A DNA stretch of 64,000 nt, from positions 1 to 64,000 of the forward strand of contig NZ_BAIN01000011.1 of assembly GCF_000613285.1 (NCBI RefSeq). The letters are read 5' to 3'. How positions within the stretch are numbered: position 1 is the first letter of the stretch; every line of letters begins with the position of its first letter. Source of the stretch: Acetobacter papayae JCM 25143. GTDB taxonomy: Bacteria > Pseudomonadota > Alphaproteobacteria > Acetobacterales > Acetobacteraceae. The position numbers were made by a program, and so were the translations under genes. The notes under the pieces were generated by a model. The model had not been told where the DNA came from, ran no database searches, and worked only from the letters and a program-made list of their open reading frames with translations. Positions 17,509 through 61,930 of this stretch are shown here, one piece after another.

Positions 17509-17634
17509 CAGGCGGCGCATCCACCGGTAAGCGCCCCTTTCCTGATCGGAACGCGGGAGGTTTTGCCGGGCGCTGTAACGCTTGGTGGAATCGTATGAAC
17601 CGCGGTCCGGGTTCAATAGAGAGGAGTCCCGGAT

Positions 17635-18069
17635 ATGGCCAAAAAAGTTGTTGGCTACATCAAGCTTCAGATTCCCGCTGGTAAAGCCAACCCTTCTCCG
17701 CCGGTTGGTCCGGCGCTGGGTCAGCGCGGTCTGAATATCATGGAATTCTGCAAGGCGTTCAACGCCAAGACCCAGGGCCTCGAGCCGGGTATGCCGATTC
17801 CTGTCGTGATCACCGCTTATGCGGATCGCACGTTCAGCTTCATCACCAAAACCCCGCCGAACACCTACTTCCTGCTGAAGGCCGCCAAGATTTCCAAGGG
17901 CAGCCAGACGGTTGGTAAGAGTGCGTCCGTTGGTAAGGTGACCATGGCTCAGCTGCGTGAAATCGCTGAGCAGAAGCAGCAGGACATGAACGCGAACGAC
18001 CTCGACGGCGCAGTGCGCATGCTCGCTGGTTCCGCCCGTTCCATGGGTCTTGATGTGGTGGAGGGCTGA
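17635..18069 (+). CDS. rplK: 50S ribosomal protein L11
   Basis: 144 residues, full length. L11 binds the GTPase-associated centre of 23S rRNA. The N-terminal domain has [20 protein letters not shown] and [12 protein letters not shown]; the C-terminal RNA-binding domain has [12 protein letters not shown] and [18 protein letters not shown] lies 8 bases before the ATG. It heads the ribosomal block, 126 bases after the histidine kinase; secE and nusG, the usual upstream neighbours, are absent here. Confidence 0.98.
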
Positions 18070-58215: not shown

Positions 58216-59609
58216 TTAACTGCGGTTGCCGCTCATGTCTGCTCCGGCGGAAGGGCGCATGGTGCCTGCTATGGGGGTTGCCAGCAGGGAAATACCCCCC
58301 GTCACCAGCAGAGCGATGGAAAAATCGTTCAGCGTCGGCTCACTCTGGCCAGACAGGGCATTGAGCACCGTAAGCGTGCCTGCCGCGATACAGATCCCGC
58401 TTGAGAGCATGATCTGCTGCATGGTCGAATACAGGCTGGTGGCCGCACTCATGCGGTTGGGCGGAATATCTGCATAAGCGACTGTATTATAGGCGGAAAA
58501 CTGCACGGCCTGAGCCGCGCCAGCCATAACCAGCACGATGGAAATGGTCCACATAGGCATAGGCGGGCGGTAGCCAGCGATCAGGGCAAAAATAACGGCT
58601 GCGGACAGGCCGTTAATCATCAGCACCCGGCGAAAGCCCCAGCGTTTGAGAATGGCGGGCACCAGTGGACGAATGGCGATAGAGCCAATGGCCCAACAAA
58701 TGTGACAATACCGCTCTGGGCCGCGTTCAGCCCCGCGCCGATCTGCAAAAAGGTGGGCAGCAGGAAGGGGAGTGAGCCCACGGCAATGCGCGAGGCCGCT
58801 CCCGCCACGAGCGAAATGCGGAAGGTGGCAAAGCGCATCAGCCGGAAATCCAGCAGTGGCTCGGTAATCCGGCTTGCATGGCGCGCATAGACAGCCATAA
58901 GCACCACACCCCCAGCCAGCAGGCTGACCAGCACGGGCCAGCCCGCCGCATCATGGCTGAACAGTTCGGCCAGAATGGACAGGGTGGCCAGTCCGCCTCC
59001 GGCCAGCACCATGCCTTTGAGGTCAAACGGAGGGGGTGAGGGCTCGCGCACCTGCGGGATAAAGCGCCATGTCATCAACAGCCCCAGTATGCCCACGGGA
59101 ATGTTGAGATAAAAATTCCACCGCCATGAAAACCATGTGGTGATGAAACCACCCACAACCGGCCCCATAAGTGGGCCGAGTGTTGCAGGGAGCATCATCC
59201 ACGCCATGGCGCGCACAAGATCCTGGCGGGGGGTATCCCGAATGACGACAAGCCGCCCTACAGGTACCATTAGCGCCCCGCCCGCGCCTTGCAGCATGCG
59301 CATGATAGCCAGAAACGGCAGCGAATGCGCAATGCCGCAGAAAATGGAGCAAACCAGAAAGACGCTGATAGCCAGACTGAGAATGGTGCGGCTGCCAAGC
59401 CTGTCCGCCAGCGCTCCAGATGCGGGAATAAAAATAGCCAGCCCGATAATATAGGATGTCAGGGCTACGGAAGTTGCAACCGTATCGACATGCAGATCAT
59501 GCGCGATGGCGGGCAGTGCCGTAGCCAGAATGGTGCCATCGAGTTGTTCCATGAAGAACATGGCGGAGACAGTAAGGGCCGTGAGTTGGATACGGTTAGG
59601 AAAAGCCAT
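58216..59609 (-). CDS. MFS drug efflux transporter, DHA2 (EmrB-like) family (frameshifted)
   Basis: 464 residues after repair, fourteen-helix type. FFMEQLDGTILATALPAIAH is the DHA2 TM1 signature, with GALADRLGSRTILSLA (motif A) and GPLMGPVVGGFITTWFSWRW (motif C) following. The frame breaks near 58693: one G restores IVTFVGAIGSIAIRPLVPAI. It lies upstream of the RND operon on the same strand, so both pumps may answer to one signal. Upstream is a short palindrome. Confidence 0.92.
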
Positions 59610-59647
59610 GCCTGCGTGGGAACCCTAGTCAGCGTTATGTTTTTGCG

Positions 59648-59664
59648 GTCTGATAGGTTCAGAC
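59648..59664. promoter_or_regulatory. 17-bp palindrome between divergent MFS and CsbD-like genes
   Basis: GTCTGA and TCAGAC are exact inverted repeats with a TAGGT spacer, 39 bases before the MFS start and 67 before the CsbD-like start. Its size suits a TetR- or MarR-type operator, but no regulator gene is adjacent. Confidence 0.4.
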
Positions 59665-59730
59665 AACCGTAAAGCCGGGATCACGCCCGATACGCGGACC
59701 GTGGACCAAGCGGTTGGAGAAGGGAGGACT

Positions 59731-60042
59731 ATGGTCATGGCTGATGACAAAATCAAGAAACTGGAAAACAGGGCCGAAGGCGTCGCCAAGGATGTGCAGG
59801 GTCACCTGAAAGATGCCGTTGGCGGATTGACAGGGGATGTCGGCCTGCAGGCGGAAGGCAAGTTCGACCAGTTCGCCGGGCACATGCAGCAGGATTTTGC
59901 TGATCTGTACGACGAAGGCGAGGGGGTGGTGGAAAAGGCCGTAACCCTCGTGCGCGACAAGCCCCTGCTGGCTCTTGGCGTTGTTTCCTTTGTCGGGATC
60001 GTGCTGGGCTGGCTGCTCGCACCGCGTTCAAAGCGGTCCTGA
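59731..60042 (+). CDS. CsbD-like stress protein with C-terminal membrane anchor
   Basis: 103 residues from the ATG at 59731 (Met at 59737 also possible), with AGGGAGG upstream. The N-terminal half is CsbD-like (KLENRAEGVAKDVQGHLKDA and GGLTGDVGLQAEGKFDQFAG). The C-terminal half resembles DUF883/ElaB: KPLLALGVVSFVGIVLGWLL and APRSKRS, an inner-membrane anchor. CsbD-type proteins are induced by general stress; no biochemical role is known. Confidence 0.82.
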   Translation: MVMADDKIKKLENRAEGVAKDVQGHLKDAVGGLTGDVGLQAEGKFDQFAGHMQQDFADLYDEGEGVVEKAVTLVRDKPLLALGVVSFVGIVLGWLLAPRSKRS

Positions 60043-60060
60043 AAAAAATCATTTCATCAG

Positions 60061-60147
60061 GACTCTTGCGTTCCTAGGTGAAAAAATGCTTCTCCTTCCC
60101 CACGGAGTCGCAGTTAGAGCGACTCGGTTATTTTAGCCGAGTCGCTC
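60061..60147 (+). promoter_or_regulatory. GANTC cluster with inverted repeats ahead of rnhB-ccrM
   Basis: Four GANTC sequences, the target of CcrM methylation, occur at 60061, 60105, 60121 and 60139. The third and fourth are the arms of a perfect 11-bp inverted repeat (GAGCGACTCGG and CCGAGTCGCTC, 60117-60147). The second and third can also pair (GAGTCGC with GCGACTC). The region is 35-120 bases before rnhB. Methylation-sensitive control of the operon is inferred by analogy with Caulobacter ccrM. Confidence 0.55.
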
Positions 60148-60181
60148 AAAACGGGCGATCAGTTGGACGGAACGAGGGGCA

Positions 60182-61930
<1,749 letters not shown>

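Follow-up and report, generated by a model that had tools for sequence, protein, structure and literature searches.

A conserved cluster of GANTC sites before rnhB-ccrM of Acetobacter papayae as a probable methylation-gated autoregulatory leader

Among restriction-modification systems there are autoregulated methylase genes, controlled through the recognition site of their own enzyme. For the CcrM-type adenine methylases the reference system is Caulobacter, where transcription of ccrM is methylation-sensitive (Stephens 1995, as cited in PMC2217572 and PMC3973325) and is activated by CtrA (PMC2217572); these papers, like the others named below, are represented by excerpts. GcrA binds m6A-marked DNA, and mutation of GANTC lowered activity by 60-80% at four Caulobacter promoters and left a fifth unaffected (PMC3667746, excerpt). 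According to the available portion of PMC7987155, the GANTC subset YGAKTCK is associated with activation by GcrA, with no such preference in Brevundimonas, and ccrM is predicted to be a core GcrA target in many alphaproteobacterial orders, this control being predicted lost in freshwater Caulobacterales and in Parvularculales. An earlier survey of GANTC counts before cell-cycle genes could, in the part available, derive no control from them (PMC2877005). Methylation control and GcrA control of ccrM are already in print, as finding or as prediction, and the literature searched has little on how ccrM is controlled in bacteria other than Caulobacter. In the open-licence literature searched we found no treatment of CcrM together with Acetobacteraceae or together with rnhB, nor any description of a dense clade-retained cluster, of a hairpin, or of an overlap with a leader that may cover the ribosome-binding site. 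Here we present an analysis of positions 60061-60147 in a stretch of 64,000 nucleotides from Acetobacter papayae JCM 25143 (the window). With a probability of about 0.62, this segment is a conserved methylation-gated autoregulatory promoter-leader of rnhB-ccrM, most likely read by GcrA.

The segment lies in an intergenic stretch that begins with the stop codon of a csbD-like gene (60040-60042) and ends at the start of rnhB (60182). The csbD-like gene (59731..60042, + strand, start codon provisional) is an open reading frame with a Pfam CsbD match of 1.2e-15 on 59734-60039; a DUF883-type C-terminus of its product scores below its Pfam cut-off. It is followed by rnhB for RNase HII (60182..60807, + strand; Pfam RNase_HII 1.9e-37 on 60238-60804) and by ccrM for a CcrM-type adenine methylase (60807..61930, + strand), whose N6_N4_Mtase (PF01555) and RAMA (PF18755) domains were found by Pfam on two fragments in the window. 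The stop codon of rnhB and the start codon of ccrM overlap as TGATG (60805-60809), which fits a single operon, so the inclusion of rnhB in the regulated unit, as proposed in the initial annotation, is reasonable. The frame of rnhB is broken near 60228-60235 and that of ccrM near 61247-61256, and each break fits one missing base. Because an MFS gene upstream (58216-59609) also seems split in the list of open reading frames, the breaks are read as assembly or sequencing errors and not as decay; the source genome is a draft assembly of 177 contigs, 87% complete. Both genes are intact in a relative (genome G002, locus L088), with 208 amino acids for RnhB and 372 for CcrM. This intact CcrM scores 622 bits with the NCBIfam CcrM model NF050803, below the cut-off of 830, and its match takes in positions 2-349 of the 350 in the model; the name of the model suggests that it was built on Caulobacter; the assignment to CcrM is based on the full-length match combined with the two domains. 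The closest named CcrM among the matches listed is that of Acetobacter suratthaniensis (97% over the CcrM N-terminus). A repeat or mobile element was considered as well and was ruled out, the leader being single-copy within its own genome; 25 plasmid records gave only matches of 60-80% to distant relatives.

Four GANTC sites had been reported within 83 bases directly before rnhB-ccrM, and their positions (60061-60143) bear this out. All four lie between the csbD stop and the rnhB start and are given without strand: site 1 (GACTC, 60061..60065) abuts a CTTGC box, site 2 (60105..60109) reads GAGTC, site 3 (GACTC, 60121..60125) stands in a CGACTCG context that reads CGAGTCG on the other strand, and site 4 (GAGTC, 60139..60143) stands in a CGAGTCG context. 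The initial annotation assumed a chance rate of one site per 256 bases, which overstates the frequency in this DNA: 59 GANTC were counted over the 64,000 bases of the window (one per 1085), versus 212.6 on average when the dinucleotides were shuffled 100 times. GANTC is thus avoided in the window, which makes the cluster more unusual than the assumed rate implies. In 20,000 trials with uniform placement of 59 sites, 0.33% had four of them within 83 bases, a figure to be read with the dependence among sites 2-4 in mind, because GAGTCGC, GCGACTC and GAGTCGC are arms of inverted repeats. The yardstick taken from the same genus was 800 kb of genome G022 (5,000 bases of which read N), with 856 GANTC versus 1834 expected. 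There the ccrM leader (1093653-1093735) is the sole place with four GANTC in at most 90 bases; it is also one of four places with four sites in 220 bases and one of eight with three in 100 bases. The scarcity of GANTC in both the window and G022 is compatible with methylation of GANTC by CcrM. Elsewhere in the window three GANTC fall within 100 bases only once, at 17588-17674, in the leader and start of an rplK-like gene (ribosomal protein L11, assigned by eye); in the rplK-like leader of G022 (L205, 11094-11163) three lie within 70 bases, and some of their positions correspond.

Leaders of relatives were read as the DNA before each located rnhB. At E 1e-50 a ccrM match was obtained in 141 genomes of the family, and 60 of the most similar were added to the set; ten of these 60 lacked a usable rnhB start, L111 was dropped likewise, and L128 has no rnhB. 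The readable leaders from the same genus number 37 (L087-L110, L112-L123 and L131, with L111 excluded). All four sites are kept in 33 of them, the exceptions being L121 with two and L119, L122 and L123 with none. Alignment A1 consists of those 33 rows, the four exceptions being excluded as lacking the element. The letters GA.TC are invariant in A1 in all 16 columns versus 9 of the 106 other leader columns, a perfect conservation that is conditional, because the rows were chosen for holding the element. The middle base is C in 31 rows and G in two at site 1, G in 27 and A in six at site 2, and invariant at sites 3 and 4. Selection on a methylase target would predict such a pattern, in which GA and TC are fixed and N is free. 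GANTC is accordingly found conserved among orthologues in the promoter region, the promoter itself being putative. Some subclades have gained sites, up to nine GANTC in the 220 bases before rnhB, seven of them within 100 bases (L115). A separate observation concerns L109 (genome G001), where both arms of the stem around site 1 have become GANTC (GACTCCGAGTC ... GGAGTC), so that 100 bases hold seven sites.

The wider distribution was followed on a tree of RnhB and CcrM fragments (92 rows, from L087-L190 only; quick method with SH-aLRT support only), in which a clade of 64 rows with support 90 contains the same-genus rows. In the stretch of 220 bases that precedes rnhB, 55 of the 64 clade rows hold at least three GANTC within 100 bases, versus 3 of the 28 others, where the clade counts are not independent because the rows are related. 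The 28 outside rows comprise 22 family members and six from other families, and those with a cluster are L168, L184 and L185. With the same-genus count, this answers the question of conservation in relatives on which the initial annotation had staked its proposal, and answers it in favour. The mean number of GANTC per leader is 4.56 in the clade versus 1.14 outside, and clade leaders hold 292 sites in 14,080 bases versus 856 in 800,000 bases of G022. Placed on the tree, the cluster label needs nine changes versus 27.7 in shuffles. Named loci were listed for 80 of 590, and 67 were readable; among these listed loci at least three GANTC in 100 bases were seen in eight (three from Acetobacter, two from Gluconobacter and one each from Asaia, Bombella and Brytella), and 53 of the 67 had none or one. 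The clade is called acetic acid bacteria here because the eight cluster-bearing named loci come from those genera. Nine clade rows are clusterless (L119, L121, L122, L123, L157, L159, L163, L166 and L169), and all nine genomes encode CcrM and GcrA, so that the cluster can be lost and the control is dispensable. Some of the clusterless genomes that carry ccrM and gcrA are small, namely G012 and G016 (L122 and L123) with 1.5-1.7 Mb and G100 and G181 (L159 and L166) with 2.0-2.5 Mb.

The conserved CTTGCGT (60065..60071, + strand) resembles a -35 element of the ttGnnn type and is a putative part of the promoter. For Gluconobacter oxydans, promoters with a ttGnnn -35 and a lax -10 are described (PMC5756330, excerpt). 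The box persists in several rows without site 1. Its core CTTGC is present in 41 of the 64 clade rows, absent in 23, and found in none of the 19 rows of a Gluconobacter/Asaia-type group. From CTTGCG an ATG or GTG follows 16 or 17 bases on (counted from CTTG), also in rows without site 1. A standard sigma-70 promoter scan returned no + strand site, and no convincing -10 was seen at normal spacing from CTTGCG. Either CTTGCG would be a -35 without a good -10, or the A/T-rich hexamer before the ATG would be the -10 with site 1 on the -35. Under both options site 1 would lie at or beside the -35 and sites 2-4 at or after the start. An upstream peptide was also considered, since many rows have an ATG or GTG before the pyrimidine box described below; it was rejected, as the frame ends differ and the Shine-Dalgarno sequence is inconsistent by eye.

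The sequence context of the sites points to GcrA. Sites 3 and 4 of the window match YGAKTCK, sites 1 and 2 do not. Over the clade, YGAKTCK accounts for 152 of 292 leader sites versus 169 of 856 in G022 and 12 of the 55 sites found elsewhere in the window; for the narrower CGAKTCG the counts are 130 of 292 versus 28 of 856 and 2 of 55. A pair of CGANTCG within 60 bases occurs once in the 800 kb of G022, and that place is the ccrM leader. The extended motif is thus found where a GcrA target would carry it. GcrA itself (PF07750 above the Pfam cut-off) was found in G000 and in all 18 same-genus genomes, in 27 of 31 genomes overall and in all 24 further chosen genomes. As the GcrA of G000 reaches 89 bits against an NCBIfam equivalog cut-off of 280 and PF07750 also matches in one archaeal control genome, the label alone is no proof. 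The gcrA genes have leaders of their own, in which few sites were seen: among six same-genus leaders (L233-L238) five have no GANTC in the 300 bases before the start and L237 has one, and in a seventh genome (L239) one was counted by eye. A promoter-like pair CTTGAG ... TANNAT is readable by eye in most of the seven.

In the proposed mechanism CcrM would methylate the GANTC cluster in the leader of its own operon. The methylation state of the cluster would most likely be sensed by GcrA, which acts as a cofactor of sigma-70 and binds GANTC in its methylated form, and the reader would then set transcription of rnhB-ccrM. The hemimethylation that follows replication would serve as the cell-cycle signal. 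Activation by methylation is favoured over a Caulobacter-type turn-off by full methylation because GcrA activates methylated promoters. Methylation of the sites, GcrA binding, the response of expression and the sign of the feedback are inferred here.

The alternative that survives best, which we nevertheless regard as rather doubtful, is a negative feedback of the Caulobacter type that works without GcrA: hemimethylated DNA would be transcribed after passage of the fork, and full methylation would shut transcription off. In its favour, transcription of ccrM in Caulobacter is said to take place on a hemimethylated chromosome alone (PMC2217572, excerpt) and to be most probably methylation-controlled (PMC3973325, excerpt), and sites at or after the presumed start would suit a block in the leader. 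The enrichment of CGAKTCG, however, points to reading by GcrA, and the Caulobacter promoter depends on an activator whose site is missing here. For the CtrA-type site we took the motif TTAA-N7-TTAA. With one mismatch allowed it occurs twice in the window (38331 and 48083) and nowhere near the leader, and the exact motif is in none of the 64 clade leaders. We take Granulibacter to be a member of this family. A published survey, in its available part, lists no ctrA in Granulibacter (PMC2877005). The suggestion that the locus is a denser version of the Caulobacter feedback stands as regards the dense and conserved cluster, and is doubtful as regards the mechanism, given the missing CtrA-type site and the GcrA prediction of PMC7987155 (excerpt).

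Beyond the initial annotation, the leader contains a hairpin over sites 3 and 4, and its RNA may pair with the ribosome-binding site of rnhB, both points being new here. The inverted repeat (60117..60147, + strand; arms 60117-60130 and 60134-60147, carrying sites 3 and 4) forms a strong stem of 14 pairs, one of them G-T, with a loop of 3 nt; a weaker one joins 60105-60111 with 60119-60125. In A1 the stem over sites 3 and 4, taken together with a stem of five pairs around site 1, shows 51 cells with changes on both sides versus 22.1 in shuffled alignments (0 of 500), and a covariation score of 0.262 versus 0.146, the shuffles ignoring the relatedness of the rows. If the partner is shifted by one to three columns, pairing on A1 falls from 83% to 23-43%. 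Six of the 14 pairs of the stem over sites 3 and 4 never vary in A1, and RNAalifold finds 16 pairs on this alignment with a weak covariation energy of -0.97. The RNA of 60040-60200 folds with z -5.9 versus shuffles, and four leaders fold better than shuffles with z -5.2 (60079-60190), -7.7, -8.0 and -2.5. In the minimum free energy fold of 60079-60190 the pyrimidine box TGCTTCTCCTTCC (60087..60099, + strand) is predicted to pair with the ribosome-binding region of rnhB, GGAACGAGGGGCA (60169..60181, + strand). As the register of this helix shifts between subclades, counting of pairs on A1 was replaced by a permutation of duplexes. Among 22 chosen representatives the matched duplexes have a mean of -15.0 kcal/mol versus -12.3 when permuted (0 of 50,000), where mismatched duplexes also pair well because the boxes are pyrimidine-rich and the ribosome-binding sites purine-rich. 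A comparison over 46 rows, in which the box of L109 (not among the 22) is mis-assigned, has the same direction. Among the rows that do not support the pairing are L114 (rank 22 of 22), L101 (17) and L090 (16). For the box-bearing rows (41 of 64 in the clade), pairing of the box with the rnhB ribosome-binding site is predicted to be possible to probable.

From these features one may construct a leader of RNA only, a structured 5' region that would hide the ribosome-binding site of rnhB and in which GANTC would be a by-product of the stems. Folding better than shuffles, the covariation of the two stems and duplexes that are better within than between the 22 species all speak for such a structure; as the complete explanation we nonetheless hold it to be distinctly unlikely. 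Structure is not the whole reason for GANTC, because in 18 of the 64 clade rows at least three sites occur although no GANTC-armed stem runs through seven pairs without a break, a sign that the layout turns over between genera while sites persist, and because sites 1 and 2, outside the hairpin, keep GA.TC and vary only at N. Further points against it are the absence of the box in all 19 Gluconobacter/Asaia-type rows, most of them with clusters, the lack of a second such cluster in 800 kb of G022, the small covariation energy given by RNAalifold, and a search of 59600-60400 against Rfam 15 that matched no family (one chance hit with E 0.57 and 19 bits versus a gathering threshold of 90).

RNA structure may still act beside methylation gating by GcrA, which remains the preferred reading. 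As a weaker inference, transcripts of the Acetobacter type and the Komagataeibacter type may fold over the ribosome-binding site of rnhB and so limit translation. The two layers could be joined in a switch with two codes, a tentative and on the whole unlikely extension. GcrA would read the cluster only when it is methylated, so that CcrM keeps its own gene on; the RNA with the GANTC stem would hide the rnhB ribosome-binding site and cap CcrM; and CtrA would have no part. If this were true, a cell that loses methylation would stay off, which amounts to a self-sustaining epigenetic state, and acetic acid bacteria would run ccrM by a loop of GcrA and CcrM without CtrA.

It is very unlikely that the palindrome is an operator for MucR, CtrA, DnaA or another palindrome-binding dimer that shields GANTC from CcrM. 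The palindrome does covary; in the excerpt of PMC5172544 GANTC sites can be blocked by MucR or CtrA in Caulobacter and by MucR in Sinorhizobium, and where CtrA sites are lacking, DnaA motifs have been predicted upstream of ccrM (PMC2877005, excerpt). A fixed operator would nevertheless show the opposite of what is seen: the flanks of the palindrome change freely and the palindrome is absent in many clade rows, while GANTC stays. The DnaA box TTATNCACA does not occur in the window leader with one mismatch allowed, nor exactly in the 64 clade leaders, and the CtrA-type site is missing from both as stated above. LexA-like sites of the form GTTC-N7-GTTC can mimic conservation of GANTC (PMC7987155, excerpt); they were ruled out as the cause of the cluster, since among the 64 clade leaders only L114 and L148 have one, on opposite strands. 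That the segment is a csbD terminator, or an attenuator of two exclusive hairpins (60105-60125 and 60117-60147) sharing one arm, is highly improbable, for although a terminator-like call at 60105-60125 is followed by GGTTATTTTA, this short hairpin and its T run are not retained in, for example, L113 and L115-L118, whose site 2 reads GAATC, and the GC-rich hairpin at 60117-60147 is followed by AAAACGGG and no T run, which rules out the csbD terminator.

In strains of Acetobacter, Gluconobacter or the Komagataeibacter type, the cluster of this clade is compact and accessible enough to genetics to serve as a test case for the predicted loop from GcrA to ccrM. The question whether that loop is self-sustaining (bistable) or self-limiting can be addressed there, and the clusterless clade members with ccrM and gcrA provide natural comparisons.

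Like ccrM of Caulobacter, which is known here by its published description, the methylase of this locus probably regulates its own gene through the methylation state of GANTC. The locus differs in its four to nine sites, placed partly in an inverted repeat, and in having no CtrA-type site; in freshwater Caulobacterales, moreover, GcrA control of ccrM is predicted to be lost (PMC7987155, excerpt). With the GcrA/CcrM promoters of mipZ, podJ, flaY and pleC (PMC3667746, excerpt) it shares GANTC in the promoter region and the YGAKTCK context, and with the GcrA/CcrM set of PMC7987155 (excerpt) the place of ccrM among the probable core targets listed for many orders. Unlike those promoters it has a dense cluster that is retained in the clade, stands before rnhB and not directly before ccrM, and lies partly in a hairpin, with GcrA binding predicted. 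As in the autoregulated methylase genes of restriction-modification systems, the leader carries the target sites of the encoded enzyme; unlike those methylases, CcrM is a solitary enzyme of the cell cycle, its leader holds multiple sites, and they are likely read by a separate protein.
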